Assembly (NCBI GenBank): GCA_013791775.1
Contig: VMTE01000003.1
Coordinates: 1 to 64,000, forward strand
DNA length: 64,000 bases
DNA from: Hyphomonas sp.
Lineage (GTDB): Bacteria; Pseudomonadota; Alphaproteobacteria; Caulobacterales; Hyphomonadaceae
Direction: 5' to 3'
Positions 42,039 to 59,117 of this stretch are shown here, piece by piece. The notes under the pieces were generated by a model. That model was not told where the DNA came from, searched no databases, and saw only the letters and a list, made by a program, of their open reading frames with translations. Position 1 is the stretch's first letter; each line of letters starts with the position of its first letter. The translations under genes and the position numbers were made by a program.

Positions 42039-42144
42039 GCCCGCTTCTTGTCCTCCGGTCCGCAATGGGCCCTGTTTGCCCGGTTTTGCCAGCCATCGCC
42101 ACCCCTCAGCTTGTTGGGCAACCGACCCTTCGTCAATAATAGCA

Positions 42145-42176
42145 AATAGCTATTGAGCATAGCAATTAAATGCTAT
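42145..42176. promoter_or_regulatory. FerC-type double operator in the ferC-ferB intergenic region
   Basis: The palindrome AATAGCTATT (42145-42154) starts the motif AGCTAT-tgagc-ATAGCAATT (42148-42167), which runs into the inverted repeat ATAGCA-N6-TGCTAT (42159-42176). The overlapping arrangement matches 19441-19471. It lies about 90 bp before ferB and 107 bp before ferC. Confidence 0.65.
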
Positions 42177-44802: not shown

Positions 44803-45591
44803 TCAGAGGCCGGGCAGGAACTCCAGCATGGAATCCGGACGCGCGAGCGTGATCAGGCGCAATCCCGCCTCCCGGGCTCGGCTCACCGCCAGGCTGGTTG
44901 CCGTTGAAATCGTGACTAGGACCGGGCAACCGGCAACCGCCGTCTTTTCAACGAGCTCATAGCTGCACCGGGAAGACAGCAGAAAGAACCCGTCAGTAGG
45001 CTGCAGACCGCTGCGCGCCAGGGCCCCGATGAGCTTATCCAGTGCATTGTGCCGTCCCACGTCTTCGCGTGCTCGCAGGATTTCGCCCGCCGGCGAACAG
45101 AAGGCCGCTGCATGCGTGCCGCCTGTCGCCTGGTTCAGCGGTTGGTGACCGCGCAAGGCGGCGAGCGCCTTGAACAAGGCGCCGTCGGCAATTTCGGCGG
45201 CCGCCGTCACTTTCGGAAGAGGGCGGGCCACCAGATCCAGGTTCTCGAGCCCGCAAATGCCGCAGCTGCTCTCCGATACCCGGGTTCTCACCCGCTCGAG
45301 CAGGGGCTGCGAAAGCTGGGCATTGATCCGGATCCGGACGATCCATCCCTTTTCGGTCTGGTGAATGTCGATACTGTCGATTTCCGACACCGACCGCACA
45401 ATGCGTTCGGACAGAGCAAACCCGGATGCGAAGTCTTCAAGATCGGCAGGCGTCGCCATCATCACGGCGTAGCCGATGCCGTTGAACTCCAATGAGATCG
45501 GCGCCTCTATGGGTATGTTTCTGGTGCCGCGTTTGTGTGCATCCGGAAAAATCTCCGTGACGCTGGCTGGCTCATGCGTTTGGCGTGTCAT
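44803..45591 (-). CDS. fdhD: formate dehydrogenase sulfurtransferase FdhD
   Basis: This 262-residue protein delivers sulfur to the molybdenum cofactor of formate dehydrogenase. The conserved cysteine pair is in SSCGICGLE near 117-125; REDVGRHNALDKLIG near 183-197 is the family signature. The frame extends to 45780, but the ATG at 45591, which overlaps fdsD by 20 bp, gives the family length. It is the last gene of the long minus-strand transcript beginning at purU. Confidence 0.93.
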   Translation of the reverse strand: MTRQTHEPASVTEIFPDAHKRGTRNIPIEAPISLEFNGIGYAVMMATPADLEDFASGFALSERIVRSVSEIDSIDIHQTEKGWIVRIRINAQLSQPLLERVRTRVSESSCGICGLENLDLVARPLPKVTAAAEIADGALFKALAALRGHQPLNQATGGTHAAAFCSPAGEILRAREDVGRHNALDKLIGALARSGLQPTDGFFLLSSRCSYELVEKTAVAGCPVLVTISTATSLAVSRAREAGLRLITLARPDSMLEFLPGL

Positions 45592-45820
45592 GTGCCGCTC
45601 CGCTGGCCAATCCGATCTGGCGAAAAGCCTGAAGGGCAATCTCCGAAAGGCCCCGTCCGCACTCCCGCTCGATGTGGTCTTGCACGGCCGCGCGCATGCG
45701 CGGGGCCCAAAACTTCCGGATATGGTCAGCCGTCGCTGCAGCGGCGGCTTCCGGACCATGGGTTTCAAGGTTTCGCGCAATCTGGTTCGCCATCCGGATC
45801 AGGTTTTCAAGCGTACTCAC
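45572..45820 (-). CDS. fdsD: NAD-dependent formate dehydrogenase delta subunit
   Basis: This 82-residue protein resembles FdsD (LENLIRMANQIARNLETHGP, residues 4-23; ATADHIRKFWAPRMR near 29-43). FdsD is needed for maturation and stability of Fds-type formate dehydrogenase. The GTG at 45820 overlaps the fdsA stop (GTGA), which I prefer to the longer frame to 45943. It sits between fdsA and fdhD, as in Cupriavidus and Rhodobacter. Confidence 0.88.
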   Translation of the reverse strand: MSTLENLIRMANQIARNLETHGPEAAAAATADHIRKFWAPRMRAAVQDHIERECGRGLSEIALQAFRQIGLASGAAHDTPNA

Positions 45821-48663
45821 TCGGACGGCTCCGCCGCAATCGTGCGCCGCGCAGCCTTGGCGTGCGCCTCGTAGGAGTCCTGCCAGGCAGATCTCCCGTT
45901 GGTTGCGCTGACTTGAACGGCCGTCACCTTGTATTCCGGACAATTCGTTGCCCAGTCAGAATACTCCGTGGTCACCACATTCGTCTGGGTGTCGGGATGG
46001 TGGAAGGTGGTGTAGACGACGCCGGGCGCCACCCTGTCCGTAACTTTGAGCCGAAGGGCGGTGGCGCCCATCCGGCTGGACAATTTGACCCAATCTTTGT
46101 CCAACAAACCCCGATCTTCAGCATCGACCGGGTGCATCTCGAGAAAATCCTCCTGATGCCAGTCGACGTTCCGAGTGCGCCGCGTCTGCGCGCCGACATT
46201 GTATTGGCTGAGAATTCTCCCGGTCGTCAGGAGCAGCGGAAATTTCGGTCCTGTCTTCTCGTCGGTCGGAACATATTCGGTAACAATGAACTTGCCCTTT
46301 CCCCGTACGAAGCCATCGACATGCATGATCGGTGAGCCTTCCGGGGCCGCATCGTTCACTGGCCATTGCAACGAGCCGGCGCGGTCCAGCTTCTCGTAGG
46401 ACACGCCCGAGAAAGTCGGAGTCAGGCGCGCGATCTCATCCATAACCTCAGATGGGTGGCTGTAATTCCAGCCGAGACCCAACGCGTTCGCCAGCGCCTG
46501 TGTAACTTCCCAATCTTCCATGCCGTTGAGCGGCGTCATCACACGCCGGACCATCTGTATGCGGCGTTCGGCATTCGTGAACGTGCCGTTCTTCTCGAGA
46601 AATGACGAGCCCGGCAGGAACACGTGCGCGTAGTTCGCCGTCTCATTCAGAAAGAGGTCGTGGACGATCACGCAGTCCATCGCCTCGAGACCTGCGGCGA
46701 CGTGCGCCGTGTTGGGGTCTGACTGCAGGATATCCTCACCCTGAATATAGATGCCTCGGAACGAACCATCGAGGGCCGCGTCCAGCATGTTGTTGATGCG
46801 AAGGCCGGGTTCCGGATCAAGTTTCGTATTCCACGCGGTTTCAAACATCTGGCGCACCTCCGTGCCGGAGATGTGCCGGTATCCCGGCAATTCGTGCGGA
46901 AAACTGCCCATGTCGCAGGCGCCCTGCACGTTGTTCTGGCCGCGCAAGGGATTCACCCCAACGCCCGGCCGGCCGATATTGCCGGTCGCCATGGCAAGAT
47001 TGGCAATCGCGATGACCGTGGAAGATCCCTGGCTGTGCTCGGTGACGCCAAGACCGTAATAGATGGCGCCGGCTCCGCCCGTTGCGTAGAGCCTGGCCGC
47101 TTCGCGCAGTTCGGAAGCGGGCACCTGTGTCAGCGCCTCGGTCGCCTCTGGTGATCGCTTCGGGTCGGACACGAAATCGGCCCAGTCCTGATATTCGTCC
47201 GCGTCGCACCGCTCACGAATGAAATCCTTGTCGGCGAGGCCTTCGGTGACGATCACATGCGCCATGGCAGTCAGCACGGCGACGTTGGTTCCGGGTCGCA
47301 AGGCGAGGTGCTGTGCCGCCCGGATGTGCGGTGAGCGCACCAGGTCGATCCGCCTTGGATCGATGATGATAATTCGGGCGCCCTGACGAATGCGCGCTTT
47401 CATGCGGCTGGCAAAAACGGGATGCGCGTCGGTCGGATTCGCCCCGATCAGGAGGATGACATCGGTGTGCATCACGCTGTCGAAATCCTGGGTGCCCGCA
47501 GATGTTCCAAAGGTAACCGACAGGCCATATCCTGTGGGCGAGTGACAAACTCGAGCGCAGGTATCCACATTGTTATTGCCGAAGCCGGCGCGAACCAGCT
47601 TCTGGACCAGGAAGGTTTCTTCATTGGTGCAGCGGCTGGATGTTATGCCGCCCAGCGCGTCTTTGCCATGCGTGTCGCGGATGGCCTTGAGTTTTCCGGC
47701 CGCAAAGGTCAGTGCCTCATCCCAGCTCACTTCCGTCCAGGGGTCGTTGATCCGCTCCCGGATCATCGGCTTGGTAACGCGCTCCTGATGGTGGGCATAG
47801 CCCCAGGCAAACCGTCCCTTGACGCACGAATGGCCACGGTTCGCCTTGCCATCTTTCCAGGGCACCATCCGAACGAGCTCCTCGCCGCGCATTTCGGCGC
47901 GAAAGGTGCAGCCGACACCGCAATAGGCGCAGGTCGTGATTACCGCGCGTTCCGGCACCCCGATTTCGATGACCGACTTTTCCTGCAGCGTGGAGGTCGG
48001 GCAGGCCTGTACGCACGCACCGCAGGACACGCATTCGGACGTGAAAAAATTGTCTGACCGCAGCCCTGCCGACACCTTCGAATCAAAGCCGCGGCCCTCG
48101 ATGGTCAGCGCAAGCGTGCCCTGAACCTCGTCGCAAGCCCGCACGCAGCGCGAGCAAACGATGCATTTGGACGGATCAAACGCGAAATAAGGGTTTGATG
48201 TGTCCTTCTCCTGCTTCCGGTGATTTTCGCCGTCAATCCCGTAGCGGACATCTCTCAGGCCGACCGCGCCCGCTTGATCCTGCAATTCGCAATCTCCGTT
48301 CGCGGCGCAGGTCAGGCAGTCGAGCGGATGATCCGAGATATAAAGTTCCATGACGCCGCGCCGGAGCCGCTTCAGGCGTTCGGTTTGAGTGCGGACAATC
48401 ATGCCGTCTGCAACAGGCGTGGTGCAGGAGGCTGGTGTGCCGCGCATACCCTCGATCTCGACGAGGCACAGGCGGCACGACCCGAAACTGCCGAGCATGT
48501 CCGTGGCGCAGAGCTTGGGGATGGATTGTCCGAGCTCAGCCGCCGCCCTCATCACCGAAGATCCTTCGGGCATGTTGATCCGGCGGCCGTCAATCGTCAC
48601 GGTGACGGTCCGGTCGGACGCAGAGCGGGGCGTTCCGAGGTCCTTATCGCGCTGGTACGTCAT
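45817..48663 (-). CDS. fdsA: NAD-dependent formate dehydrogenase, molybdenum alpha subunit
   Basis: Catalytic subunit (948 residues) oxidising formate to CO2. In order: an N-terminal [2Fe-2S] domain (CATDMLGSFGSCRLC near 52-66), a CLTCAANGDCE cluster, two [4Fe-4S] ferredoxin motifs (CIVCSRCVRAC near 167-177, CVSCGACVQAC near 211-221), and the [4Fe-4S] CAYCGVGCTF of the Mo-bisPGD domain. The catalytic cysteine is near 373 (ARVCHSPTG), not selenocysteine. The start at 48663 overlaps fdsB by 20 bp. Electrons flow to NAD through FdsB and FdsG. Its formate comes from PurU in this module. Confidence 0.96.
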   Translation of the reverse strand: MTYQRDKDLGTPRSASDRTVTVTIDGRRINMPEGSSVMRAAAELGQSIPKLCATDMLGSFGSCRLCLVEIEGMRGTPASCTTPVADGMIVRTQTERLKRLRRGVMELYISDHPLDCLTCAANGDCELQDQAGAVGLRDVRYGIDGENHRKQEKDTSNPYFAFDPSKCIVCSRCVRACDEVQGTLALTIEGRGFDSKVSAGLRSDNFFTSECVSCGACVQACPTSTLQEKSVIEIGVPERAVITTCAYCGVGCTFRAEMRGEELVRMVPWKDGKANRGHSCVKGRFAWGYAHHQERVTKPMIRERINDPWTEVSWDEALTFAAGKLKAIRDTHGKDALGGITSSRCTNEETFLVQKLVRAGFGNNNVDTCARVCHSPTGYGLSVTFGTSAGTQDFDSVMHTDVILLIGANPTDAHPVFASRMKARIRQGARIIIIDPRRIDLVRSPHIRAAQHLALRPGTNVAVLTAMAHVIVTEGLADKDFIRERCDADEYQDWADFVSDPKRSPEATEALTQVPASELREAARLYATGGAGAIYYGLGVTEHSQGSSTVIAIANLAMATGNIGRPGVGVNPLRGQNNVQGACDMGSFPHELPGYRHISGTEVRQMFETAWNTKLDPEPGLRINNMLDAALDGSFRGIYIQGEDILQSDPNTAHVAAGLEAMDCVIVHDLFLNETANYAHVFLPGSSFLEKNGTFTNAERRIQMVRRVMTPLNGMEDWEVTQALANALGLGWNYSHPSEVMDEIARLTPTFSGVSYEKLDRAGSLQWPVNDAAPEGSPIMHVDGFVRGKGKFIVTEYVPTDEKTGPKFPLLLTTGRILSQYNVGAQTRRTRNVDWHQEDFLEMHPVDAEDRGLLDKDWVKLSSRMGATALRLKVTDRVAPGVVYTTFHHPDTQTNVVTTEYSDWATNCPEYKVTAVQVSATNGRSAWQDSYEAHAKAARRTIAAEPSE

Positions 48664-50149
48664 CTGGAGCCTCAAGGTTGGGAGTGTTGTGCGCCTTGGC
48701 CCGGCGGAAATCCTCCGGGAAATGTCTGATGGCGGAAAGCACCGGGTACGGCGTAAATCCGCCCATCGCGCACAGGGAACCGAAGGTCATGGTCTCGCAG
48801 AGGTCCTCGATGAGTTCGAGATTCGCCTCTGTTTGTTCGCCGGCGATGATCTTTTCCATGGTTTCCCGTCCGCGCACGGAACCGATGCGGCACGGCGTGC
48901 ATTTACCGCAGCTCTCGATCGCGCAGAATTCGAGGGCGAAGCGCGCCTGCTCAGCCAGATCAACCGTATCGTCGAAAACGACCACGCCGCCATGCCCGAT
49001 GAGGCCGCCGGCCGCCGCAAACGCTTCATAGTCAAACGGCGTGTCGAACAGGGCAGGGGGAAAATAGGCGCCGAGAGGGCCTCCCACCTGGACGGCGCGC
49101 ACCGGCCGGCCGGTCTCGGTTCCGCCGCCGATCTCGTTGACCAGATCGCCTAGCGTCACTCCAAAGCTGGTTTCGAAAAGGCCGCCGTGGCGGATGTTTC
49201 CGGCAAGCTGAATGGGCATGGTTCCGCGTGATCGCCCCATGCCGAAGTCGCGGTAAGCGTCCGCCCCATGCCTGAGAATCCACGGCACGGCGGCGAGCGT
49301 GAGTACGTTATTGATGATGGTGGGCTTGCCAAAAAGTCCGGCATGGGCGGGCAGGGGCGGCTTGGCTCTCACTTCGCCGCGTTTGCCCTCCAGGCTGTTG
49401 AGGAGGGCTGTTTCCTCACCGCAGACATATGAGCCTGCGCCGGCGCGGACCTCGACCGAGAACGGGGCAAGAATATCACGGCAAAGCCGGACCGCTTGCT
49501 CCAGTTTGGCGATGGCGTGGGGGTATTCCGAGCGGACGTAGACATAGCCCTTGCTGGCGCCCGCCGCGTGGCCCGCAATGGCCATGCCTTCCAGCAGCTG
49601 GAAGGGATCGCCCTCCATGGCCATTCGGTCCGCAAATGTGCCGCTGTCGCCTTCATCGGCGTTGCAGACGATGTATTTCTGATCGCCCGGCGCTTCGAGA
49701 ACGGTGCGCCACTTTATGCCGGCCGGAAAACCGGCGCCACCTCGGCCGCGCAGACCTGAACCCGCAACGATCTCCACAACCTCCAGCGGGCTCATGGCGC
49801 GTGCAAGCGACAAGCCTTCCCACCCGGCTGTTGCCGTGTAGTCCTCAAGCGACAAGGACCGGGTCTTGCCGGCGCGGGCGAATGTGAGGCGTGTTTGCCG
49901 GGCGAGAAAGGGATGCGACCCGATCACGCCGATGCACTTGTCATCCAGTTCGCCGGCCAGAAGTTTCGCAACATCCGGCACAGCCAGCGGCCCGTATCCG
50001 ACGCCGTCGATCTCCGCCAGGGGCTCCAGCCAATGCATGCCCCACGATGATACGCGCTCTACCTCGGCCCCGCCCGCCGTGAGCGCGCGGGCGATCGCGT
50101 CTGCGCCGCAGGCGATGGCCAGCGCATCATCGGACAAGCGCACCTTCAT
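48644..50149 (-). CDS. fdsB: NAD-dependent formate dehydrogenase, flavoprotein beta subunit
   Basis: NuoF-like diaphorase subunit (501 residues). FMN and NADH binding is seen in GSGLRGRGGAGFPAG near 131-145 and VCNADEGDSGTFADR near 162-176. The [4Fe-4S] motif SCGKCTPCRIGSVRG lies near 410-424. The N-terminal 90 residues are a thioredoxin-like extension. The ATG at 50149 overlaps the fdsG stop (ATGA), so the upstream frame to 50242 is not the start. It passes electrons from FdsA to NAD. Confidence 0.95.
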   Translation of the reverse strand: MKVRLSDDALAIACGADAIARALTAGGAEVERVSSWGMHWLEPLAEIDGVGYGPLAVPDVAKLLAGELDDKCIGVIGSHPFLARQTRLTFARAGKTRSLSLEDYTATAGWEGLSLARAMSPLEVVEIVAGSGLRGRGGAGFPAGIKWRTVLEAPGDQKYIVCNADEGDSGTFADRMAMEGDPFQLLEGMAIAGHAAGASKGYVYVRSEYPHAIAKLEQAVRLCRDILAPFSVEVRAGAGSYVCGEETALLNSLEGKRGEVRAKPPLPAHAGLFGKPTIINNVLTLAAVPWILRHGADAYRDFGMGRSRGTMPIQLAGNIRHGGLFETSFGVTLGDLVNEIGGGTETGRPVRAVQVGGPLGAYFPPALFDTPFDYEAFAAAGGLIGHGGVVVFDDTVDLAEQARFALEFCAIESCGKCTPCRIGSVRGRETMEKIIAGEQTEANLELIEDLCETMTFGSLCAMGGFTPYPVLSAIRHFPEDFRRAKAHNTPNLEAPDDVPAR

Positions 50150-50571
50150 CGCGGATCCTCCAGCAATTGCCTCAGCGATCCAGCGTCCAGGCGGGCATGG
50201 ACGCCGCCGTTCGGAGACATCGCAGCGGGCCCCACCGCGCAAAGGCCCAGGCAGTAAACCGGCTCCAACTGCTCTTGTTCGATCCGTGTCATTTGCGTGA
50301 GGAGCTGTCGCAGTCCGCGCGCCTGGCAGGCCTCGCCATGGCAGAGTTTCACAACCGGTTGGGCGGGCGGCTCCATACGAAAATCATGGTAGAAGGAAAC
50401 GACGCCGTACACCTCGGCACGGGACAGGTTGAGGGCATTCGCAATCTCGCGCATGGCCGCTTCGCTGACGAAGCCGAACTCTGCCTGCACGGCTTGCAGA
50501 ACCGGCAGCAGCGGCGCATCTGTGCTGCGGAATGCGTCGAGGATGCGGGTGACGTTGTCTTGATCTTGCAT
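50146..50571 (-). CDS. fdsG: NAD-dependent formate dehydrogenase gamma subunit
   Basis: NuoE-like [2Fe-2S] protein (141 residues) with helical N-terminus and thioredoxin-fold C-terminus. Cluster cysteines are in VKLCHGEACQARG and YCLGLCAVGPA. The ATG at 50571, with GAGGA about 10 bp upstream, gives the family length. ATGs at 50595 and 50598 or the frame to 50721 are alternatives. It is the first of the fds genes, 97 bp behind folC. Confidence 0.93.
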   Translation of the reverse strand: MQDQDNVTRILDAFRSTDAPLLPVLQAVQAEFGFVSEAAMREIANALNLSRAEVYGVVSFYHDFRMEPPAQPVVKLCHGEACQARGLRQLLTQMTRIEQEQLEPVYCLGLCAVGPAAMSPNGGVHARLDAGSLRQLLEDPR

Positions 50572-50668
50572 GCCTGGATCCTCATTCCTGTTCATCATAC
50601 CAGCAGAGTGCAGGCTGGGAACCGCCCGGCGCACCGAGCCGCTTTCTTTTTCCAGCTTACACCCTCGT

Positions 50669-52048
50669 TCAGACCTCCGGCCACCTTCCGGCGGCCGGAA
50701 ATGATTCGAGAACGTCGCCAACCAGATAAAGTGAGCCTGCGATCAGAACTCTTGGCGCCCTTGCGCTTTCCCCAGCCGCCAAGGTGATGGCCTGGAGCGC
50801 ACTGATGACATCGGGCACAGGTGTCGCGGCGAACCCCAGGCTGCTTGCGATCTCCGCCAGTTCCCGCGGCAGGTACATATGGGCGGATGTCCGCAGCGGC
50901 ACGGTGTAGATGTGGGCAGCAAGTTTGGCAAAGTTGCGTAGATAACCAGCGGCGTCCTTGTCCCGGTTCATTCCGGTTATGAGATGAAACGTGTGCCTGT
51001 CTGCGTCTGCTCCAGAGCGGAAATACTCTGAAATCCGTTGGCCGGCTGACGGGTTATGTCCGCCGTCCAGCCAGATCTCCGCACTTGGCGGCGCACGACC
51101 TGAAAACCCATCCGGGCGAACTTTCTGAAGCCGTCCGGGCCAGTCCACCGCGCGCATTGCTCTCTGCGCCGCCTGATCGAGTCGCGGAACGCCGGCTAGT
51201 CGCGCGGCCTTTATCGCCGACGCCGCATTCTCGACCTGATGGCAGCCGCAGAGCTTTGGCGCCTCGAGCTCGAGCGTTATCTCGGTATCTTCGTAGCGCA
51301 GTGTATCACCAATCATCCGTGCGCCGAAGTCATCGCCATGAGCGAAGACCGGGCTCCCCAGTCCGGCCGCTTCAGACCTGATCACGTCCAAAGCTTCCTT
51401 GTACTCCTGGCGGCCGACGACAACGGGTCGCCCGGGCTTGATGATTCCGGCCTTTTCCCGGGCGATCTGGTCTATCCTGTCCCCCAGCGCCGCCTGATGA
51501 TCGTATGAAATTGACGTGATGACGCTCGCCGCCGGCGTCTCGATGAGATTGGTCGCATCGCGCCGGCCGCCGAGCCCCGTTTCGACGATGGCCACATCCG
51601 CCGGATGGTCCGAGAACAGAAGAAAAGCCGCGAGGGTGAGTTTGCCGAAAATACTGGCAGCACCCGTCTCGTCGGCTTCCATCACATGGTGAAGTGTTTG
51701 CGCGAGCTTTTCGTCGCTGACGATCCGCGCACCGGTCGCGCCGCCCATCTGAAACCGCTCGTTCCAGCGGACCAGGTGAGGCGAGGTATAGACGTGCGCG
51801 GCGAGGCCGGCCGATTGGCAGATGGCTTTGAGAAAAGCGACGGTTGATCCCTTGCCGTTGGTGCCGGCCACGTGGATGACCGGCGGCAATGTCAGATGCG
51901 GCCGGCCCAGCGCATTTGACAGGTCGCGCAACCGTTCGAGGGTGCGGGAAGGGTCGGTCCCGGCGCTGCCCAGGAGGCGCGCCAGGACAACCGGCAAAGG
52001 CGGAACAGGGACCAGCCCAACGTCAGCCGGTGCGGCCGCGCCTCTCAT
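50669..52048 (-). CDS. folC: dihydrofolate synthase / folylpolyglutamate synthase
   Basis: Mur-ligase-type enzyme (459 residues) that adds glutamate to dihydropteroate and to folates. The P-loop is HVAGTNGKGSTVAF near 43-56. IVETGLGGRRDATN near 131-144 and WLDGGHNPSAG near 314 are typical. The start is uncertain: ATG at 52048 has no strong ribosome binding site. Placed between folB and the fds genes, it suggests that folate cofactor is supplied for LigM. It may be a second folC beside a housekeeping copy elsewhere. Confidence 0.9.
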   Translation of the reverse strand: MRGAAAPADVGLVPVPPLPVVLARLLGSAGTDPSRTLERLRDLSNALGRPHLTLPPVIHVAGTNGKGSTVAFLKAICQSAGLAAHVYTSPHLVRWNERFQMGGATGARIVSDEKLAQTLHHVMEADETGAASIFGKLTLAAFLLFSDHPADVAIVETGLGGRRDATNLIETPAASVITSISYDHQAALGDRIDQIAREKAGIIKPGRPVVVGRQEYKEALDVIRSEAAGLGSPVFAHGDDFGARMIGDTLRYEDTEITLELEAPKLCGCHQVENAASAIKAARLAGVPRLDQAAQRAMRAVDWPGRLQKVRPDGFSGRAPPSAEIWLDGGHNPSAGQRISEYFRSGADADRHTFHLITGMNRDKDAAGYLRNFAKLAAHIYTVPLRTSAHMYLPRELAEIASSLGFAATPVPDVISALQAITLAAGESARAPRVLIAGSLYLVGDVLESFPAAGRWPEV

Positions 52049-52144
52049 CCGGAGGCCGTTCTGCGAAGGGCTGACACCCGGCGTCCGGCACCCCGGGCGA
52101 CCGGCGCCGAGGCCGTACCATAGACGCACGCGTGGCAAATCCGG

Positions 52145-52546
52145 TCAGCGGGTCTCCGCATATTCGACCTCGGCAAAATCGAGCACGCCCGGAACGCTGG
52201 CGCCCGGCTTGCGAATGCTGACCGTCACGGCGTGCGCCAGTTCGAACGTGTCGAGCAGCGATCTGGCAATCTCCTGCGACAAGGTTTCAATGAGATTGCG
52301 CCGGGATCCGAGAATGCTCCGCTCGACGATTTGGTAGACGCTCGCATAGTTGACCGTGTCATGGATGCTGTCGGAGAGGGGCGCATCACTGTGTGAAACA
52401 CCGAGCTCGACATCCACGAAGAAGCGCTGCCCGAGGCGTTTTTCCTCATCGAACATTCCGTGATGAGCGAAGAATGCACAGTTCTTGAGGCGAACGGTGA
52501 GGCGCCTCGACAAGCTGTTCGTCCGTGTTCCTGCCAGGGCGGTCAT
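52145..52546 (-). CDS. folB: dihydroneopterin aldolase
   Basis: This 133-residue FolB-type protein has KNCAFFAHHGMFDEEKRLGQ with the family's HGxxxEE pattern near 22-41, VDVELGVSHSDAP near 43-55, YASVYQIVERSI near 64-75, and the C-terminal VSIRKPGA. It makes 6-hydroxymethyl-dihydropterin for folate synthesis. The ATG at 52546 lies 13 bp after the purU stop. It is part of the transcript purU-folB-folC-fdsGBAD-fdhD. Confidence 0.9.
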   Translation of the reverse strand: MTALAGTRTNSLSRRLTVRLKNCAFFAHHGMFDEEKRLGQRFFVDVELGVSHSDAPLSDSIHDTVNYASVYQIVERSILGSRRNLIETLSQEIARSLLDTFELAHAVTVSIRKPGASVPGVLDFAEVEYAETR

Positions 52547-52559
52547 GGTCGTGATCCCG

Positions 52560-53414
52560 TCAGCTGTGGAAGACAACGGTTCGGGAACCATTGAGCAGGA
52601 TGCGGTCGTCCAGATGCAGGTGAACGGCGCGCGCGAGCACGCGGCGCTCTATGTCACGGCCCTTCATCACCAGGGTGTCCGGGGAATCGGCGTGCGAGAC
52701 GTGCTCCACATCCTGTTCGATGATCGGGCCTTCATCGAGATCCTTGGTAACATAGTGCGCCGTGGCGCCGATCATCTTCACGCCTCTCTCGTAGGCCTGA
52801 TGGTAAGGCTTCGCGCCCTTGAAGCCCGGCAGGAACGAATGATGGATGTTGATGCAGCGTCCATGCAGGAACTCGGACATTTCGTTCGAAAGGATCTGCA
52901 TGTACCGGGCAAGGATGATCAGCTCCGCGCCGGTCGCCGTGACGACCTCCCGGATCCGGGCTTCCTGCTGCGGCTTGGTGGCGGTAGTCACCGGGAGATG
53001 GTGATAGGGGATGTCGCCGATCAGCGAAATCGAAAGCGCTTCGCGCGGGTGGTTGGACACGATTCCGACGACGTCCATCTCCATCTCGCCGATCCGGTTC
53101 CGGTAGAGCAGATCGCCGAGGCAGTGATCAAACTTTGAAACCAGCATCAGGACCTTCGGCTTCTGATCGGTGTCTCGGAGGCGCCAATCCATGCCGTACT
53201 GCTCGATCGCCGGTCGGAGCAGGCTCTGCAGATCGGCCGCGGTCAGCGATCCTGTCTCGAGCACGAGGCGCATGAAGAACTTGTGGGTGACCCGGTCGGT
53301 ATGCTGCTGGGCTTCGAGGATGTTCACGTCCCGGCCAAGCAGTTTTCCGGTGACAGTTGCCACAATTCCCGGCTTGTCGGCGCACGACAGGGTGACATGA
53401 TAGGTTTTCATCAT
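52560..53414 (-). CDS. purU: formyltetrahydrofolate deformylase
   Basis: PurU (284 residues) hydrolyses 10-formyl-THF to formate and THF. The N-terminal ACT domain (CADKPGIVATVTG near 11-23) and the C-terminal formyltransferase-like hydrolase domain (VSNHP near 121, ARYMQILS near 168-175, NIHHSFLPGFKGAKPYHQAY near 186-205, TAHYVTKDLDEGPII near 214-228) are complete. The frame runs to 54038, but GGAGG 7 bp before the ATG at 53414 fixes the start. As first gene of the long transcript it releases the C1 unit for formate dehydrogenase and recycles THF for LigM. VanR-type operators lie upstream. Confidence 0.95.
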   Translation of the reverse strand: MMKTYHVTLSCADKPGIVATVTGKLLGRDVNILEAQQHTDRVTHKFFMRLVLETGSLTAADLQSLLRPAIEQYGMDWRLRDTDQKPKVLMLVSKFDHCLGDLLYRNRIGEMEMDVVGIVSNHPREALSISLIGDIPYHHLPVTTATKPQQEARIREVVTATGAELIILARYMQILSNEMSEFLHGRCINIHHSFLPGFKGAKPYHQAYERGVKMIGATAHYVTKDLDEGPIIEQDVEHVSHADSPDTLVMKGRDIERRVLARAVHLHLDDRILLNGSRTVVFHS

Positions 53415-53565
53415 CCGGTTTCCTCCACTTTTCCCGACACATTCTGCCCAACGCTCCTGGTCTTTTTGCGGCTGGTCGGACGCAGGAGGGCGTGGCGTTT
53501 GCGTACTGAATTCAGGCGCGGAACCCGCGGGCGCCCGCGATTGGGAATCCGCAGCTGCGCCTGAA

Positions 53566-53576
53566 TTTGGGATACA
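53566..53576. promoter_or_regulatory. VanR-type operator, imperfect copy (purU side)
   Basis: TTTGGGATACA shares its left arm with the perfect copy 53 bp away. About 152 bp upstream of purU. Confidence 0.45.
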
Positions 53577-53618
53577 TATATACGCGGTATCCGCAATAGC
53601 AACACAAAAAGCGGCTAT

Positions 53619-53630
53619 TTGGGATCCCAA
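53619..53630. promoter_or_regulatory. VanR-type operator TTGGGATCCCAA, perfect copy
   Basis: A perfect 12-bp palindrome, 132 bp before metF. It resembles the Caulobacter VanR operator ATTGGATCCAAT, which is also bound by a GntR-family repressor. A second near-perfect copy lies before folD at 58354. Confidence 0.65.
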
Positions 53631-53761
53631 CAAGTTGCGCCGGGGCGAAAGGCGTGATACGCAACCTGAACAGGCGCTGGCCTCCCTTCGGAGCAGGCGG
53701 CGTTTACCCGGCGATTGTAACGGCCGGGCCCGGTTTCCCAGATAGAGGTGCAAAGACAGGC

Positions 53762-54625
53762 ATGTTTGATGAGAGCGCACGCGGGAGTTCATTGCTTTTT
53801 CGTCCTTACACGGTCGAAGTGACCTCTGGTGACAGGAAGTCGGTTGCAGTCGCCATCGAGAGCTTGCCCAAAGGGACCGAAGTGTTCGTGGCGAACCTGC
53901 CCACCGACACGTCCGCCGATCTGGTCGACGCCTGCAAACAGCTCTCCGCAGCCGGTCTGTCTCCGGTGCCGCATATCGTGGCGCGCAACATTCCGGACGA
54001 ACCGACGCTGAAAAATTTACTTCGCGAACTTGCCGCACAGGCCGACGTGAAGAGTGCGCTCTGCCTTGCCGGAGACCGGGACAAGCCGGTCGGCGCCCTG
54101 TCAGACAGTCTGCAGCTGATCAGAACGGGCGCCTTTCAGGACGCTGGTATCGGCAGGTTGTTCATTTCGTGCTATCCAGAAGGCCATCCACGTATCCCGG
54201 ATGGCGTGATCCGGCAGGCGCGGCTCGACAAACTCAAGGCAATCAACGACGCCGGCCTCGAGGCGGTGTTGATGAGCCAGTTCTGCTTTGAATCCGGGCC
54301 CTATCTGAGTATGCTTCGGGAGATCAGGTCACAAGGCATCACGGCGCCAGTCAGGATTGGCGTTTCCGGTCCGGCCAATGTTGCGAAGCTGATGAAGTAC
54401 GCCATTGCCTGCGGCGTCGGCGCCTCTATGCGCGCCCTCAAGGAAAAGCAGGGGTTGGCGTCGATGGTGTTGTTTGGAGAAACGCCGGACGAAATCATTG
54501 CGGACGTGTCCGCGGCTGTGGAGCAGGATCCCTCGCTCGGTGAGGTGGGTATTCACTATTTCACGCTCGGGTCGCTGAAAAAGACGCTGGAATGGTTGCA
54601 AAGGCATCGGGCCGAGATGGCCTGA
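53762..54625 (+). CDS. metF: 5,10-methylenetetrahydrofolate reductase-like protein
   Basis: This 287-residue protein is of the MetF type (TIM barrel, FAD). VTSGDRKSV replaces the usual EFFPP region; CLAGDRDKPVG near 101-111, ISCYPEGHPR near 137-146, and MSQFCFES near 178-185 with the QFxF motif are visible. In THF-dependent O-demethylation, MetF works backwards and oxidises 5-methyl-THF from LigM to 5,10-methylene-THF. The frame begins at 53654, but the ATG at 53762, with GAGGTG upstream, is the likely start. It is followed by ligM on the same strand, as in SYK-6. Confidence 0.9.
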   Translation: MFDESARGSSLLFRPYTVEVTSGDRKSVAVAIESLPKGTEVFVANLPTDTSADLVDACKQLSAAGLSPVPHIVARNIPDEPTLKNLLRELAAQADVKSALCLAGDRDKPVGALSDSLQLIRTGAFQDAGIGRLFISCYPEGHPRIPDGVIRQARLDKLKAINDAGLEAVLMSQFCFESGPYLSMLREIRSQGITAPVRIGVSGPANVAKLMKYAIACGVGASMRALKEKQGLASMVLFGETPDEIIADVSAAVEQDPSLGEVGIHYFTLGSLKKTLEWLQRHRAEMA

Positions 54626-55041
54626 AGCGGTAGTAAATGGACACAAACGAGATTTGGTGGCTGAATTGGATTTCCGGGCATCTCGGTGCGAAGCGACGGG
54701 AAGGATTCAGAAATGGCCTGCAGCTGCTTTCAGAAGCAAGCGCTAAAAAGATAGAAAAAACAACTTAATATCGGTCCGTCTGTGAGTTGAGTTGACGGTT
54801 TGGCAGGTAAAAAGCGGGGCGCGCCCGCTTGAATCACGGGCATGGAGTGGATGGGCGCTCTATGGGAATTGGGTTGACAAATGTATCCCAAAATGTTCTC
54901 CCAAAGAGGTATCCGCCACGGGGAATATCTCGCGGCCCGTCAATCGGAAGAGACCGGACGACCGGGTCGCATTCCGGACAGAACCTGGCCGGTAAATCCG
55001 GCCGCTGGCAATAACACTAATCAGTATACAGAAGAGAGGAA
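54626..55041. other. metF-ligM intergenic region and ligM promoter
   Basis: A 416-bp gap without a gene. TTGACA at 54874-54879 may be a -35 element; the -10 region after it is poor. TGTATCCCAAA (54882-54892) and GGTATCC (54908-54914) are VanR-type elements. A long leader with a small hairpin (GGCCGGtaaatCCGGCC near 54989-55005) precedes ligM. Confidence 0.55.
54882..54892. promoter_or_regulatory. VanR-type operator, imperfect copy (ligM promoter)
   Basis: TGTATCCCAAA directly behind a TTGACA hexamer, so a bound repressor would cover the promoter. A second GGTATCC element follows at 54908-54914. Confidence 0.5.
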
Positions 55042-56433
55042 ATGCTTGTGAAAAGTCTGGAAGATAAACTGGCAGGTTTCAGCAGCCCGGCGGCCATGCT
55101 CCGTGAGGCTCAGGTGGGCCCGAACGTGTATCCCGGCGTGGCATCGGAGTTCACGAACTGGCGCGACGAACAACGGGGCTGGCAGGACACCTGCGTCCTG
55201 TTCAACCAGTCCTACCACATGGCGGACCTTTTCATCGAAGGTCCGGATGCGCTCAAGCTCCTCACGGAACTAGGCATCAACAGCTTCAAGAATTTCAAGG
55301 TTGATCAAGCCAAGCAATTCGTGCCCGTCAACTATGATGGCTACGTGATCGGCGACGTCATCCTGTTCTATCTGGATACGAACAAGTTCAGCCTGGTCGG
55401 CCGTGCGCCCACGCTCAACTGGGTCACCTATCATGCGCAGACAGGCGGTTACAATGTCGAGGTCAAGCTCGACCAGCGCTGGGCGCTGCGCAATGACGGC
55501 AAGCGGATCTTCTATCGCTACCAGGTGCAGGGTCCCAATGCCATGAAGGTCATAGAGAAGGCGACCGGTGCAAAGCCGCCCGAGCTCAAGTTTTTCAACA
55601 TGACCGTGATGAAAATCGGTGGCCGCACCGTGCGGGCGCTGCGACACGGTATGGCTGGCCAGCCGGGCTTTGAACTGTTTGGTCCCTGGGAAGAGCGCGA
55701 GGAAGTCCATCAGGCGCTGGTCGAAGCCGGTCGCGATTTCGGCATGTACCTCGTCGGCGGTCGCGCCTATTCGACGAACACGCTGGAGTCCGGCTGGATT
55801 CCGTCTCCGCTTCCGGCCGTCTATACCGGCGAGAAGATGAAAGCCTATCGCAAGTGGCTGCCCGCCGCGGGCTATGAAGGCTCCTGCTCGCTGGGTGGCA
55901 GCTTCACATCCGCGAACGTCGAAGACTATTACCTCACGCCCTGGGATCTCGGTTATGGTCCCTTCGTGAAATTCGACCACGACTTCATCGGCCGCGATGC
56001 GCTGGAGAAGAAAGCCGCGAGCGATCACCGCAAGAAGGTCACGCTGGCGCTCAACACAGACGATGTCATGGCCGTCATCCGGTCGCAGTTCGAAAAGGGC
56101 CAGCCGGGCAAGTATATCGACTTCCCGTCGGCGGTTTATTCGATGCACCCGTTCGACAAGGTGACGGTGAAGGGCAGCACGGTCGGCCTCTCCACCTGGA
56201 TCGGTTATAGCTACAGTGAGCGGACGATGCTCGCGCTCGGCATCCTGGAGCCGGATTTTGCGGGTCCCGGCCGGGAAGTCACGCTGGTGTGGGGCGAGGA
56301 AAACGGCGGCACATCCAAGCCGACCGTCGAGCGCCACCGCCAGATGGAAATCCGCGCGATTGTCAGCCCGGTGCCTTACGCGCAAACCGCGCGCAAGGAC
56401 TATGCGGAAGGCTGGCGGACCCAAACCGCCTGA
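55042..56433 (+). CDS. ligM: vanillate/3-O-methylgallate O-demethylase, THF-dependent
   Basis: A GcvT-family aminomethyltransferase homologue (463 residues) that moves the methoxyl methyl of vanillate or 3-O-methylgallate to THF, giving protocatechuate or gallate and 5-methyl-THF. Stretches shared with SYK-6 LigM include YHAQTGGYNV, LKFFNM, LRHGMAGQPG, NTLESGWIPSPLPA, YGPFVKFDHDFIGRDALE and WGEENGGT. Length equals LigM rather than the longer DesA. GAGAGGA lies only 2 bp before the ATG at 55042; the GTG at 55048 is better spaced and may be the true start. MetF, PurU, FolD and formate dehydrogenase around it handle the methyl group. Confidence 0.95.
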   Translation: MLVKSLEDKLAGFSSPAAMLREAQVGPNVYPGVASEFTNWRDEQRGWQDTCVLFNQSYHMADLFIEGPDALKLLTELGINSFKNFKVDQAKQFVPVNYDGYVIGDVILFYLDTNKFSLVGRAPTLNWVTYHAQTGGYNVEVKLDQRWALRNDGKRIFYRYQVQGPNAMKVIEKATGAKPPELKFFNMTVMKIGGRTVRALRHGMAGQPGFELFGPWEEREEVHQALVEAGRDFGMYLVGGRAYSTNTLESGWIPSPLPAVYTGEKMKAYRKWLPAAGYEGSCSLGGSFTSANVEDYYLTPWDLGYGPFVKFDHDFIGRDALEKKAASDHRKKVTLALNTDDVMAVIRSQFEKGQPGKYIDFPSAVYSMHPFDKVTVKGSTVGLSTWIGYSYSERTMLALGILEPDFAGPGREVTLVWGEENGGTSKPTVERHRQMEIRAIVSPVPYAQTARKDYAEGWRTQTA

Positions 56434-56459
56434 TTGCAGCGCCTCAAGGCCTGAACTGA

Positions 56460-56499
56460 TTGCGGGCGGCAGGTTTGACCCTGCCGCCCGCAACTTTTT
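56460..56499 (+). terminator. rho-independent terminator of ligM
   Basis: A perfect 14-bp stem TTGCGGGCGGCAGG / CCTGCCGCCCGCAA with loop TTTGAC, then CTTTTT. It lies 26 bp after the ligM stop. Confidence 0.93.
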
Positions 56500-56526
56500 G
56501 GAATGGCGACGCGCAGAGGCTGCGAA

Positions 56527-57222
56527 TCAGCCGGAGGTTGCTTCCGCCTTTTGTCGGGAGCGGATCAACATGCTGATCACCTGCTGGTGCGCGTGTTCCC
56601 TGAACAGGCTTTCGGCCCGGCTGCCATCCCGGTCGCGGATGGCTTCGACGATCGCATGATGCACGCCGTGTGCGCGGAACAGGATCGTGAACGCGGCATT
56701 CACGCCCACTTCCTCAAAGGAAATGGCAGACGGCGCAACGAACGGCACCATGTTGAGGCGGGCGATGAAGGACCTCAGGAGGTCCGAGCCGCAATTGTCA
56801 GCAATCACGCTGTGAAAGTTTGCGTTCATTTGCCGGTAGCGTTCTTCATCCTCAGCTTCGAGCTGAAGTTTGACGAATATCTCGTCGCCTTCGCGGAGGC
56901 AGGCTTCCAGTGCAGCGAAGACTTCAGGGCTTGCCCCGGTCTCGGCCAGGCGGCGCGCCGCCAGGCCTTCGAAAGCGGAGCGAAGCTGCAGCGCTTCCTC
57001 GCAGTCCTGTTCGCTGAAGGCCTTCACGGCATAGCCGCGTTTCCCGACCGGCTCGAGGAATCCTTCCGCCGCGAGCGCTGGAAGCGCGTTGCGAACCGGT
57101 GTCCGGGAGACGCCGAGAAGATCCGCAAGATAGGCCTCGGTGATCCGCATTTCCGGCGTGAGTTCGCCGTTGAGGATCATCTCGCGCAATGTGCAAAGCG
57201 TTTCATCGCCGTTCAGTCTCAC
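56527..57222 (-). CDS. vanR: GntR/FadR-family regulator, VanR-like
   Basis: This 231-residue regulator has an N-terminal GntR winged helix (TLREMILNGELTPEMRITEAYLADLLGVSRTPVRNALPALAAEGFLEP, about 10-57) and a C-terminal FCD effector domain with metal-binding His candidates (NANFHSVIADN, FRAHGVHHAIVEAI, FREHAHQQ). The start is GTG at 57222, with AAGGAG 6 bp upstream. It lies between ligM and folD. The TTGGGATCCCAA-type sites before purU/metF, ligM and folD resemble the VanR operator, so it is the likely repressor of the one-carbon module, released by vanillate. The VanR assignment is inference. Confidence 0.78.
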   Translation of the reverse strand: MRLNGDETLCTLREMILNGELTPEMRITEAYLADLLGVSRTPVRNALPALAAEGFLEPVGKRGYAVKAFSEQDCEEALQLRSAFEGLAARRLAETGASPEVFAALEACLREGDEIFVKLQLEAEDEERYRQMNANFHSVIADNCGSDLLRSFIARLNMVPFVAPSAISFEEVGVNAAFTILFRAHGVHHAIVEAIRDRDGSRAESLFREHAHQQVISMLIRSRQKAEATSG

Positions 57223-57349
57223 CTAGCGCTCCTTCTGCCGCCGCCTGTTCGGGCCGCACTTTAGATCAAGCTCACTCAAACAGTGAAGACCCAGTCATTA
57301 CAAGGCGCAATCCTGCAGAATTACTGCCAGATCCGGTGCGGCGCCCGGT

Positions 57350-58228
57350 TCAGGCCGGCTCGCTCACGGGCGCGGGCTGGCGCGTGTGCCGTTCGGCGCT
57401 GGCAATCGTGTTCTCCAGCAGCATCGTCACGGTCATCGGCCCCACGCCCCCGGGAACGGGGGTGATGTACGACGCTTTCTTCGACACACCTTCGAAATCG
57501 ACATCGCCGACAATCCGGCCGTCGCTGAGCCGGTTGATCCCGACATCAATCACGACCGCGCCGGTTTTCACCATCTGCGGAACAATCAGTCCGGGTACGC
57601 CGGCAGCGACCACAAGGATGTCAGCCAGGATGGTGAACTGCGCCAGGTCCCGGGTTTTTGCATGGCAGATCGCCACCGTCGCATCTTTGGCCATGAGCAT
57701 CAGGGCCATCGGCTTTCCGACAATGTTCGAGGCGCCCACGACGACGACATTCTGCCCCTCAACGGGAATATGTTCACTTTCGAGCAGTTTGCACACGCCG
57801 TAGGGCGTGCACGGCGAGAAGACGGTCTTTCCGACAACCAGTCCGCCGACATTGTAGAGGTGAAATCCGTCCACGTCCTTTTCAGGCGAGATGGCTTCGA
57901 GCACGGCTGTCATGTCCACATGCTTCGGCAAGGGGAGCTGGACGAGGATTCCGTGGATCTCGGGATCGGAATTCAGGGACTCAATCAGCGCGACGAGCTC
58001 ACCGGTCGAGATGGACGTCTCGCGCGTCAGCCTGACCGACCGGATGCCCACCGCTTCACAGGCGCGTACCTTGTTGCGGACATAGACCGCCGAGGCAGCG
58101 TCTTCGCCCACCAGGATCACCGCCAGGCCGGGCCGGATGCCAGCGCGCCGCGTGAGCGCCGAAACGCGCTGCGCATATTCCTGGCGCAAGGAAGAGGCCA
58201 GAGCCGCGCCATCAATCACTTTGGCCAT
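57350..58228 (-). CDS. folD: methylene-THF dehydrogenase / methenyl-THF cyclohydrolase
   Basis: Bifunctional FolD (292 residues) converts 5,10-methylene-THF to 10-formyl-THF with NADP. Motifs: YVRNKVRACEAVGI near 49-62 with the catalytic lysine, VQLPLPKHVD near 96-105, PCTPYGVCKLLE near 138-149, VVVGASNIVGKPMALMLMAKDATV near 161-184, and PVPGGVGPMTVTMLLENT near 258-275. All are intact. It links MetF to PurU in this module. Upstream lie a perfect hairpin (58258-58281) and two VanR-type operators. It may be a pathway-specific copy. Confidence 0.96.
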   Translation of the reverse strand: MAKVIDGAALASSLRQEYAQRVSALTRRAGIRPGLAVILVGEDAASAVYVRNKVRACEAVGIRSVRLTRETSISTGELVALIESLNSDPEIHGILVQLPLPKHVDMTAVLEAISPEKDVDGFHLYNVGGLVVGKTVFSPCTPYGVCKLLESEHIPVEGQNVVVVGASNIVGKPMALMLMAKDATVAICHAKTRDLAQFTILADILVVAAGVPGLIVPQMVKTGAVVIDVGINRLSDGRIVGDVDFEGVSKKASYITPVPGGVGPMTVTMLLENTIASAERHTRQPAPVSEPA

Positions 58229-58257
58229 GGAACCCGTTCACCATGAATGCCGGGAAC

Positions 58258-58281
58258 CTCGGTTCAGCCTTGAACCGAGGC
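58258..58281 (-). promoter_or_regulatory. perfect hairpin in the folD leader
   Basis: CCTCGGTTCA pairs with TGAACCGAGG around a 4-nt loop, 30 bp upstream of the folD start and downstream of the operators, so it would lie in the mRNA leader. No T run follows on the minus strand. It may affect mRNA stability or translation; its function is unknown. Confidence 0.5.
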
Positions 58282-58300
58282 GGACCCATCGAAGGAGCTC

Positions 58301-58313
58301 ATTGGTATCCAAA
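58301..58313. promoter_or_regulatory. VanR-type operator, folD promoter copy a
   Basis: ATTGGTATCCAAA, which is the Caulobacter VanR operator ATTGGATCCAAT with one inserted base and one end change. It is 73 bp upstream of folD. Confidence 0.6.
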
Positions 58314-58353
58314 AATGCCGAAAAGTCAAGCGATTGACGAACAAAACGTCGAA

Positions 58354-58366
58354 ATGGGATCCCAAT
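58354..58366. promoter_or_regulatory. VanR-type operator, folD promoter copy b
   Basis: ATGGGATCCCAAT, with core TGGGATCCCA identical to the perfect copy before metF. It lies 53 bp (five helical turns) from copy a, so the two could be bound on the same face of the DNA. Confidence 0.62.
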
Positions 58367-58637
58367 AGTGAATTCCGATGGTCCGTTCGGTCAACTGGAA
58401 TTTGAGGATTGTGCCGGGGGCTACCTGACGCACTTCAGACCGCCCTCACGACATCGGCCCCGGCTTCCCTTGATCCGAAAAGACAGTGTGCGGAGGAAAA
58501 ATGCAGGGCAAGCGAGGCGGAAGGGTTGCCTGCGCAGCAACGCACACAAAACACGAAAGCCGGATCTTCCGACAAGAATCGAACACCGTACGGACTGTTA
58601 CGTATAACCGTGAGGCATCAAAGCAACTAAGGGTAAA

Positions 58638-58656
58638 AGCTATAGAACATAGCAAT
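58638..58656. promoter_or_regulatory. FerC-type operator upstream of the second ligAB genes
   Basis: AGCTAT-agaac-ATAGCAAT, which agrees with the ferB-promoter motif (42148-42167) in all arm positions. It lies 107 bp before the alpha-subunit start. Confidence 0.58.
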
Positions 58657-58762
58657 TCAAAACGAAGGATGGGGTGGTCTAGGAACTCGGCTCTTTATCG
58701 AGGCTGTTGTCCGGAAGTCCCATCAGCCGCGTTCGGAATTTGCAAGGCAGGGGAGTAACACG

Positions 58763-59116
58763 ATGACGAGTACCAAAAGGCAGATACCAGGCACACTGGT
58801 CTTCGACGGGGATGTTGCGCAACGGGGCTATGAGCTCAACGCAATGTGCTTCTCGTTCAACAAGGTCGAGAACAGGCAGGCATTTCTCGGGGATGAGGAA
58901 GCCTACTATGACAAGTTCAAGCTGACGGACGCTCAGAAGCAGGCCGTCCGCTCCCGGAACGTTTTGAAGATGCTCAATGCCGGGGGCAATATATACTACC
59001 TCGCAAAGCTCGCGGGAATTCTCGGCCTGTCGGTTCAGGATGTTGGCGCCCAGCAAACGGGCATGAGCGTCGAAGAGTTCAAGGCCCGTCTTCTGGCGTA
59101 CGGAAAGGAGAACTGA
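58763..59116 (+). CDS. LigA-type dioxygenase alpha subunit, second copy
   Basis: This 117-residue protein is homologous to LigA at 7499 (LNAGGNIYYLAKLAGILGLSVQDV and GMSVEEFKARL in the C-terminal half) but differs in the N-terminal part (PGTLVFDGDVAQRGYELNAMCFSF). It is the small subunit of an extradiol dioxygenase with the next gene, which starts after a 1-bp gap. GGGGAG precedes the ATG. The substrate is likely a relative of protocatechuate such as gallate or 3-O-methylgallate, or protocatechuate itself. Confidence 0.88.
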   Translation: MTSTKRQIPGTLVFDGDVAQRGYELNAMCFSFNKVENRQAFLGDEEAYYDKFKLTDAQKQAVRSRNVLKMLNAGGNIYYLAKLAGILGLSVQDVGAQQTGMSVEEFKARLLAYGKEN

Positions 59117-59117
59117 A

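Follow-up and report, generated by a model that had tools for sequence, protein, structure and literature searches.

Closest described systems

Methyl groups carried on tetrahydrofolate (THF) are oxidised by MetF, FolD and PurU in Methylobacterium extorquens CM4, whose plasmid pCMU01 combines chloromethane utilisation with metF2, folD, purU and folC2 and in which metF and purU are essential for growth on the methyl donor (PMC3621897); in Sphingobium sp. SYK-6, ligM forms an operon with metF and ligH (PMC6888825). Here we describe a block of genes at positions 44803 to 58228 of a 64,000-nucleotide stretch (the window) of Hyphomonas sp. contig VMTE01000003.1, which encodes a THF-dependent aromatic O-demethylase together with folate one-carbon (C1) enzymes and an NAD-linked formate dehydrogenase (Fds). 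On its gene content we consider the block to be, probably, an acquired module that demethylates methoxylated aromatic acids and oxidises the methyl group fully by way of MetF, FolD, PurU and Fds.

Like the CM4 system, the block would take methyl on THF to formate by MetF, FolD and PurU, has an extra folC, and belongs to a genome with formyl-THF ligase (FtfL in CM4) elsewhere; it differs in that the CM4 donor is chloromethane, used via a corrinoid enzyme, and that no formate dehydrogenase is named with the C1 genes of the plasmid in the excerpt (PMC3621897). With SYK-6 it shares a THF-dependent aromatic O-demethylase gene adjoining metF, but SYK-6 pairs LigM with formyl-THF ligase (PMC6888825), whereas the window pairs a DesA-type enzyme with PurU, FolD, FolB, FolC and Fds and the ligase lies elsewhere. 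The SpG8-1b region of Agrobacterium fabrum is similar in its demethylase Atu1420, MetF Atu1418, VanR-group GntR regulator Atu1419 and MarR regulator HcaR, with operators before metF and the demethylase gene; no PurU, FolD or Fds is named for that region in the excerpt, and the operator there is ATGTATACAT (PMC7797058).

A DesA-side demethylase gene and 4,5-cleavage genes are also found in a Croceicoccus marinus plasmid (metF-purU-folD-folB adjoin the demethylase gene), in a plasmid of Novosphingobium pentaromativorans US6-1 (metF-purU by the demethylase gene, folD and folB some kilobases off) and in Sphingobium sp. TomTYG64 (metF-purU-folD by the demethylase gene, the small gene after folD being annotated 'hypothetical'), but neither fds nor folC is annotated in the stretches examined. 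On a Rhizobium plasmid the set is limited to GntR, metF and a gene of the LigM type. Because the plasmid loci hold C1 genes without fds, the C1 part alone is not special to the window.

A preliminary description of the window proposed that methoxyl groups are turned into reducing power, which is consistent with the gene chain but not new: the flux model iNovo479 of Novosphingobium aromaticivorans—a model rather than a gene block—credits THF-dependent demethylation with the NADH gained as folate is recycled and formate oxidised (PMC9028409), and a later in-silico study with the same model lists a purU deletion in connection with formate from vanillate (PMC13066346). Among the open-licence PMC papers listed in the searches, none was found that joins purU and fds to LigM or DesA at the gene level. 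Methyl oxidation by metF, folD, purU and folC2 is thus already known for chloromethane, as is the NADH payback from THF-dependent demethylation in the model; new are the purU-folB-folC-fds gene run, the apparent kinship of its PurU with demethylase-linked PurUs, and a likely C1-sensing regulator.

Gene content and layout of the block

The window lies in contig C24 of the genome (G000; 3.93 Mb, 51 contigs) and starts within an rRNA operon that is followed by tRNA-Met, which suggests a chromosomal location; the suggestion is tempered by the comparison with plasmid records, some large plasmids also carrying 23S rRNA. Families were assigned from profile (NCBIfam, Pfam, PRK) and Protein Data Bank (PDB) matches, and several gene starts are our own choice. 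These matches bear out the preliminary description in placing metF, folD, purU, fdsGBAD and fdhD in one block; it had overlooked folB and folC, which separate purU from fdsG, as well as a GntR/FCD gene that separates the demethylase gene from folD. The features are as follows, with model cut-offs in brackets.

44803..45591, minus strand: fdhD, formate dehydrogenase accessory sulfurtransferase; TIGR00129 181.7 bits (140.9), PF02634; start chosen
45572..45826, minus strand: fdsD, delta subunit of the NAD-linked formate dehydrogenase; PF11390 74.1 bits (27); start uncertain
45817..48675, minus strand: fdsA, molybdenum catalytic subunit; TIGR01591 915 bits (666)
48644..50149, minus strand: fdsB, NADH/FMN subunit; PF01512 and PF10589 above cut-off; start chosen
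50146..50598, minus strand: fdsG, 2Fe-2S thioredoxin-like subunit; PF01257 98.3 bits (24.8); start uncertain
50669..52063, minus strand: folC, folylpolyglutamate/dihydrofolate synthase, second copy; TIGR01499 338 bits (163); start uncertain
52145..52591, minus strand: folB, dihydroneopterin aldolase, second copy; TIGR00525 107 bits (72); start uncertain
52560..53414, minus strand: purU, 10-formyl-THF hydrolase; TIGR00655 319 bits (286), PDB 3nrb E=3.2e-117
53415..53761, no strand: purU/metF divergent promoter region; two candidate operators, 53567 and 53619, 52 bp apart
53762..54625, plus strand: metF, methylene-THF reductase of the demethylase-linked type; PF02219 26.7 bits (24), PDB 7xg9 E=9.7e-56
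54626..55041, no strand: demethylase promoter region; one candidate operator, 54879-54891
55042..56433, plus strand: DesA-type THF-dependent aromatic O-demethylase; DesA 831 and LigM 632 bits, tree, PDB 5x1i and 5tl4 E=7.1e-163
56527..57222, minus strand: GntR/FCD regulator related to Atu1419; Pfam GntR and FCD above cut-off, PDB 6z74 E=1.2e-34
57350..58228, minus strand: folD, methylene-THF dehydrogenase/cyclohydrolase, second copy; PRK14189 430 bits (421)
58229..58762, no strand: folD/ligA divergent promoter region; two candidate operators, 58302 and 58354, 52 bp apart
58763..59116, plus strand: ligA-like subunit of a second ring-opening dioxygenase; PF07746 126.5 bits, PRK13378 185 bits (161)
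59118..59987, plus strand: ligB-like subunit of the second ring-opening dioxygenase; PRK13364 470 bits (290)

Eight successive minus-strand genes run from purU through folB, folC, fdsG, fdsB, fdsA and fdsD to fdhD, and with the chosen starts five of the seven junctions overlap; folB and folC are separated by at least 6 bases, and folC and fdsG by about 70 bp. The metF and demethylase genes diverge from this run on the plus strand; beyond them lie the GntR/FCD gene and then folD, both on the minus strand, and next the second ligAB-like pair on the plus strand. A terminator-like stem of 14 pairs stands 3' of the demethylase gene at 56460, and a promoter/terminator scan of the window gave a count of sites not above that in shuffles. 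All of FdsG, FdsB, FdsA, FdsD and FdhD are encoded, the full set of an NAD-dependent molybdenum FdsGBAD enzyme: the FdsA product matches PDB entries 9wxb (1599 bits) and 6tg9 (1577 bits) over nearly its full length, and NuoF models score under their cut-offs with FdsB. The best solved relative of the block MetF, 7xg9, is one that we take to be the SYK-6 MetF.

Because of this gene content, the chain from MetF through FolD and PurU to Fds is the best reading of the block, and the layout, the PurU phylogeny and the candidate operators agree with it. Methoxylated aromatic acids of the vanillate and/or syringate type would be the substrates, and the DesA-type enzyme would transfer their methyl group to THF. 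The dedicated MetF and FolD would then convert methyl-THF to methylene-THF and 10-formyl-THF; PurU would release formate and free THF without ATP, and the NAD-linked Fds, encoded in the same gene run, would oxidise formate to CO2 with formation of NADH. The second FolB and FolC may serve to enlarge or retain the THF pool, and the GntR/FCD protein, as a repressor, may co-induce purU-fds, metF, the demethylase gene, folD and ligAB, perhaps in response to a C1 form of folate, as with Atu1419. The chain to CO2 and NADH is the one drawn in the preliminary description. What the sequences show directly is which genes are present, their layout, families and copy numbers, the association in phylogeny and the recurrence of candidate operators; we infer co-transcription, the substrates, the direction of MetF, flux through PurU over the ligase, and the effector.

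Second copies and probable foreign origin of the C1 genes

Two folB, two folC, two folD and two genes of the methylenetetrahydrofolate reductase family score above cut-off in the genome, with other copies at C22:43100 (folB), C7:58659 (folC) and C43:22554 (folD), and the block PurU is the only one above cut-off. The two metF copies differ widely with PF02219 (26.7 bits for the block gene, 301.5 bits for the other, ordinary one). Identities to copies in the genus are 48% for the block PurU (one PurU), 44% for FolD (one copy), 40% for FolC (two copies) and 29–36% for FolB (eight loci), and 55–75% for folP and pabCAB, which adjoin the block; by these comparisons the block looks acquired and foreign to the genus. 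As in a chloromethane-type module, metF, folD and purU, the first two present besides housekeeping copies, adjoin a gene for transfer of methyl to THF.

The adjoining folP-pabC-pabA-pabB genes (60.0–63.6 kb) were considered as a part of the module and rejected, since genus genomes have the same order with 60–75% pab/folP identity: the order is pabB-pabA-pabC-folP-folB in G058 and pabA-pabC-folP-folB in G057, where the stretch ends, and the FolP proteins of seven loci are 55–71% identical. The window folP is the only dihydropteroate synthase gene above cut-off in the genome and is therefore taken as native and outside the module. The pabB-pabA-pabC-folP genes (60043-63626) thus resemble the genus's own folate operon, folB following folP in G057 and G058 and not here. 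Eight of the 42 genus genomes, some incomplete (G051, G052, G060, G066, G069, G071, G072 and G073), have neither folB nor dihydropteroate synthase above cut-off; one of these, G069, nevertheless has a LigM-type gene. Folate auxotrophy or an unrecognised route is possible.

The demethylase and its aromatic context

The preliminary description named the demethylase LigM. A THF-dependent demethylase is indeed present, and it passes both NCBIfam models, but it scores higher with DesA (831 bits against an equivalog cut-off of 800) than with LigM (632 against 580), whereas the LigM-type proteins of relatives G069 and G098 score 883 and 807 bits with LigM and 656 and 686 with DesA. In a 95-row tree made by a quick method, which has no SYK-6 DesA sequence among its rows, SYK-6 LigM clusters with G069 and G098 in a different clade from the window demethylase, which is sister to two Cellvibrionales rows (support 86); of the scored rows on its side, five exceed the DesA cut-off and L089 falls just under it (797.6). 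The label of LigM orthologue was therefore rejected, on the higher DesA score and the position of SYK-6 LigM. The window demethylase is of the DesA type, its activity on substrates being predicted from sequence. It is the sole LigM-family member above the LigM cut-off in the genome, a cut-off passed in three of 105 family genomes and two of 42 genus genomes.

Protocatechuate 4,5-cleavage genes (pobA, ligB, ligA, ligK and an oxalomesaconate tautomerase gene, all above cut-off) lie at 4.5–12.9 kb of the window, and a p-hydroxycinnamoyl-CoA hydratase/lyase gene at 42.2 kb. That the enzyme acts not on vanillate or syringate but on another methoxylated compound, for instance dicamba (a xenobiotic) or a methoxybenzoate, is unlikely in our judgement: dicamba demethylases are among the reported THF-dependent demethylases (PMC9404685) and the window enzyme is at most 70–71% identical to any relative fetched, but it passes the DesA model and has the protocatechuate and hydroxycinnamate genes near by.

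Association in other genomes

Named genomes were scanned for demethylase relatives and the neighbours of the best 80 loci, of at least 589, were searched with tblastn (E 1e-8, 35% query coverage), which may miss short or divergent genes; of these stretches, 45 reach 20 kb or more and 20 are shorter than 12 kb, so that the counts are lower bounds. Near the demethylase gene, PurU was found in 18 stretches, MetF in 20, FolD in nine and FdhD in two, and none of the 80 gave a match to formyl-THF ligase, FdsA, FdsB, FdsG, FolB or FolC. A LigAB-like pair such as that near the DesA-type gene here (58763-59987) directly follows the demethylase gene in four of the 80 (L034, L042, L084 and L087).

The preliminary description suggested looking for the same block in related genomes. 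Demethylase, metF and purU do recur together, and once with fds close by, in Cellvibrionales bacterium Ww495 (L034, G106), where all lie on one contig within about 21 kb in total: ligAB, a desA-type gene, metF, purU, a PcaK-like gene, GntR and a ligM-type gene are followed, after a gap of about 5 kb, by fdsG-fdsB-fdsA-fdhD and a small frame 3' of fdhD that resembles fdsD by eye. A gene of the cobalamin-independent methionine synthase II type is annotated near the demethylase gene in Croceicoccus and Novosphingobium, and a similar frame is seen by eye in the Cellvibrionales locus (stretches L139, L141 and L159 in all); it is a possible further exit for methyl.

A PurU tree was built from 34 rows (32 different), 26 of them demethylase-linked and eight taken from the window's family on a PurU match alone. 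Twenty-five linked rows (23 different), including that of the window, form one clade with L106 of G035 (support 100/99), and the seven other window-family rows stand apart. The window PurU thus appears closer to PurUs that are linked with a demethylase in other orders than to the PurUs of its own family.

The regulator and candidate operators

In A. fabrum, Atu1419 acts as a repressor of the genes for MetF and the demethylase, and N5,N10-methylene-THF releases it (PMC7797058). It is also the best solved relative (6z74, E=1.2e-34) of the window GntR, the two being identical in 78 of 211 aligned columns. The zinc ligands of Atu1419 (Asn137, His141, His192 and His214) are kept as N133, H137, H188 and H210, and its DNA contacts Glu34, Arg45, Thr46 and Arg49 are kept too. 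Of its contacts with citrate, which mimics the effector, Arg86, Tyr133 and Ser169 are kept, two are changed (see below) and Asn221 lies outside the alignment. The candidate sites here, TGGGATCCCA and TGGGATACAT, are not the Atu1419 operator.

The pattern TGGGATMCMW occurs at four places in the window, each of them within the purU/metF, metF/demethylase or folD/ligA region; two of the places are palindromic, and the resulting six matches were reached in one of 100 shuffles. Three region pairs among four regions share a 13-mer with at most one mismatch (reached by 13 of 1000 shuffles), and the total of shared words in this test was matched by 24 of 1000. The two pairs of sites, 53567/53619 and 58302/58354, are each 52 bp apart. 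A scan of 13 other loci for TTGGGATCCCAA, allowing one mismatch, gave two sites: one lies about 100 bp before the GntR match in L036, and the other some 250 bp before the demethylase gene in L089, which has extra sites with two mismatches before the demethylase gene and before GntR. Candidate operators shared across the promoter regions are, on this evidence, suggestive.

A fuller picture, which is tentative and in our view less likely than not, is a self-sensing regulon in which a methylene-THF-responsive GntR repressor, a tetramer on paired operators 52 bp apart, would co-induce the demethylase, the THF oxidation chain and a PurU-Fds exit that trades the ATP of the ligase for speed and NADH, with a private FolB and FolC for a catabolic folate pool.

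Separately, a 24-base stretch with four differences is common to the marR/hydroxycinnamoyl-CoA hydratase promoter (42148-42171) and the folD/ligA promoter (58638-58661); it is perhaps a site of the MarR-family protein encoded at 41604-42065, and a MarR and GntR pair is also found in A. fabrum.

Exits from 10-formyl-THF and the place of Fds

Several observations weigh against the module as proposed. The first is that the genome encodes a full-length formyl-THF ligase, a 577-codon open frame outside the block (G000:C43:72076-73734; PF01268 848.7 bits, cut-off 27). The preliminary description had held the ligase, or LigH, to be absent; this is true of the block, which is not an operon of the SYK-6 type with its ligase included, but absence from the genome was rejected on this copy. 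The ligase was matched in 41 of the 42 genus genomes (in G066 by fragments only) and in 60 of the 105 family genomes. The further claim that PurU plus formate dehydrogenase replaces an ATP-yielding recycling is not supported, because the genome and nearly all of its genus hold the ligase; PurU and LigH, moreover, both end in formate, so that formate dehydrogenase is no alternative to LigH and only PurU is. The PurU exit forgoes ATP that the ligase could return, and Fds is useful with either, since both release formate. Given the C43 copy, either exit may dominate.

The second concerns the 20 genomes with a demethylase-linked PurU (18 that belong to named records, together with G069 and G098), several of them drafts or metagenome genomes in which absences are provisional: eight also have the ligase, and 12 gave no match to it. 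We think it somewhat unlikely that 10-formyl-THF leaves mainly through the ligase in reverse, with gain of ATP (the role proposed for LigH in SYK-6), while PurU acts as an overflow valve or in purine supply and Fds burns formate from either. The full-length copy, its prevalence in the genus, the co-occurrence with PurU in those eight genomes and the ligM-metF-ligH precedent of SYK-6 (PMC6888825) speak for such an exit, and the block PurU, as the sole one in the genome, may do housekeeping work too. Yet the block holds PurU and not the ligase, the ligase was found in none of the 80 demethylase stretches and resembles a housekeeping gene of the genus, and the 12 genomes without a match have PurU linked to the demethylase gene.

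Linkage of fds is likewise rare. The Fds catalytic subunit is above cut-off in five of 105 family genomes and two of 42 genus genomes; 11 of the 20 PurU-linked genomes have no Fds-type subunit above cut-off, other formate dehydrogenase-like subunits scoring below, and among the nine that do, fds is linked in one, the other eight having it on a different contig or more than 100 kb away. With FdsA in none of the 80 stretches, fds linkage as a general rule was rejected. Six PurU-linked genomes have Fds and no ligase, and six have neither above cut-off, some with other formate dehydrogenase-like subunits below it.

Methylene-THF also feeds biosynthesis, and the methyl carbon could go mainly into serine, purines and methionine, with Fds a general detoxification of formate or formaldehyde that adjoins purU and folBC by chance. 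The fds operons are widespread on plasmids, and formaldehyde genes adjoin fds in two of four annotated plasmid regions inspected, though not in the other two; none of the four has a demethylase gene or purU in its annotation table, and a fifth region carries no annotation. We regard this account as quite improbable, given that fds stands in a same-strand run with purU, that a distant Cellvibrionales genome has a similar neighbourhood, and that C1 from methoxylated aromatics should exceed biosynthetic need. Two other fds loci may be mentioned here: on a plasmid of Sphingobium sp. EP60837 (L137) pabB adjoins fdsGBAD-fdhD, and on contig C46 of family genome G021 some 24 kb hold formyl-THF ligase, fdsGBA-fdhD and weak matches of the GcvT type, which may mark a further C1 island tied to THF, with ligase in place of PurU.

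The remaining points touch the phylogeny and the regulator. The PurU tree is biased, its linked rows having been chosen for an adjoining demethylase gene, so that constant linkage of the clade does not follow from it; the genome of clade member L106 gave no LigM match, and one linked actinobacterial row falls outside the clade. In the window GntR, Lys175 and Arg183, which contact one orientation of the citrate in Atu1419, are Glu and Thr. A looser operator pattern gives eight matches, in the same regions only, against a shuffle mean of 7.2, and is not enriched; its placement alone is notable. The pattern was derived from the regions where it was counted, the four regions were picked after nine had been viewed, and five of the seven other loci with a GntR relative, including the nearest relatives L034 and L042, have no site near their promoters.

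Significance

We continue to favour the module in which PurU and Fds complete the oxidation of the methyl group. Its layout is uncommon in packaging a demethylase and folate oxidation with a formate dehydrogenase of their own, and it bears on how folate is recycled. The combination of metF, folD, purU and fds suggests a cassette for moving THF-dependent demethylases into other hosts. According to a table in a 2026 review, ligM and metF are found in Novosphingobium rhizosphaerae LY and N. aromaticivorans F199, but the entry for ligH is 'None found' in both (PMC12997858), which raises the question of how THF is recycled there without LigH. PurU, by its presence in 18 of the best 80 loci and its linkage to the demethylase gene in 12 genomes (of 20) with no ligase match, would be a direct and testable answer to how THF is recycled where LigH is lacking.

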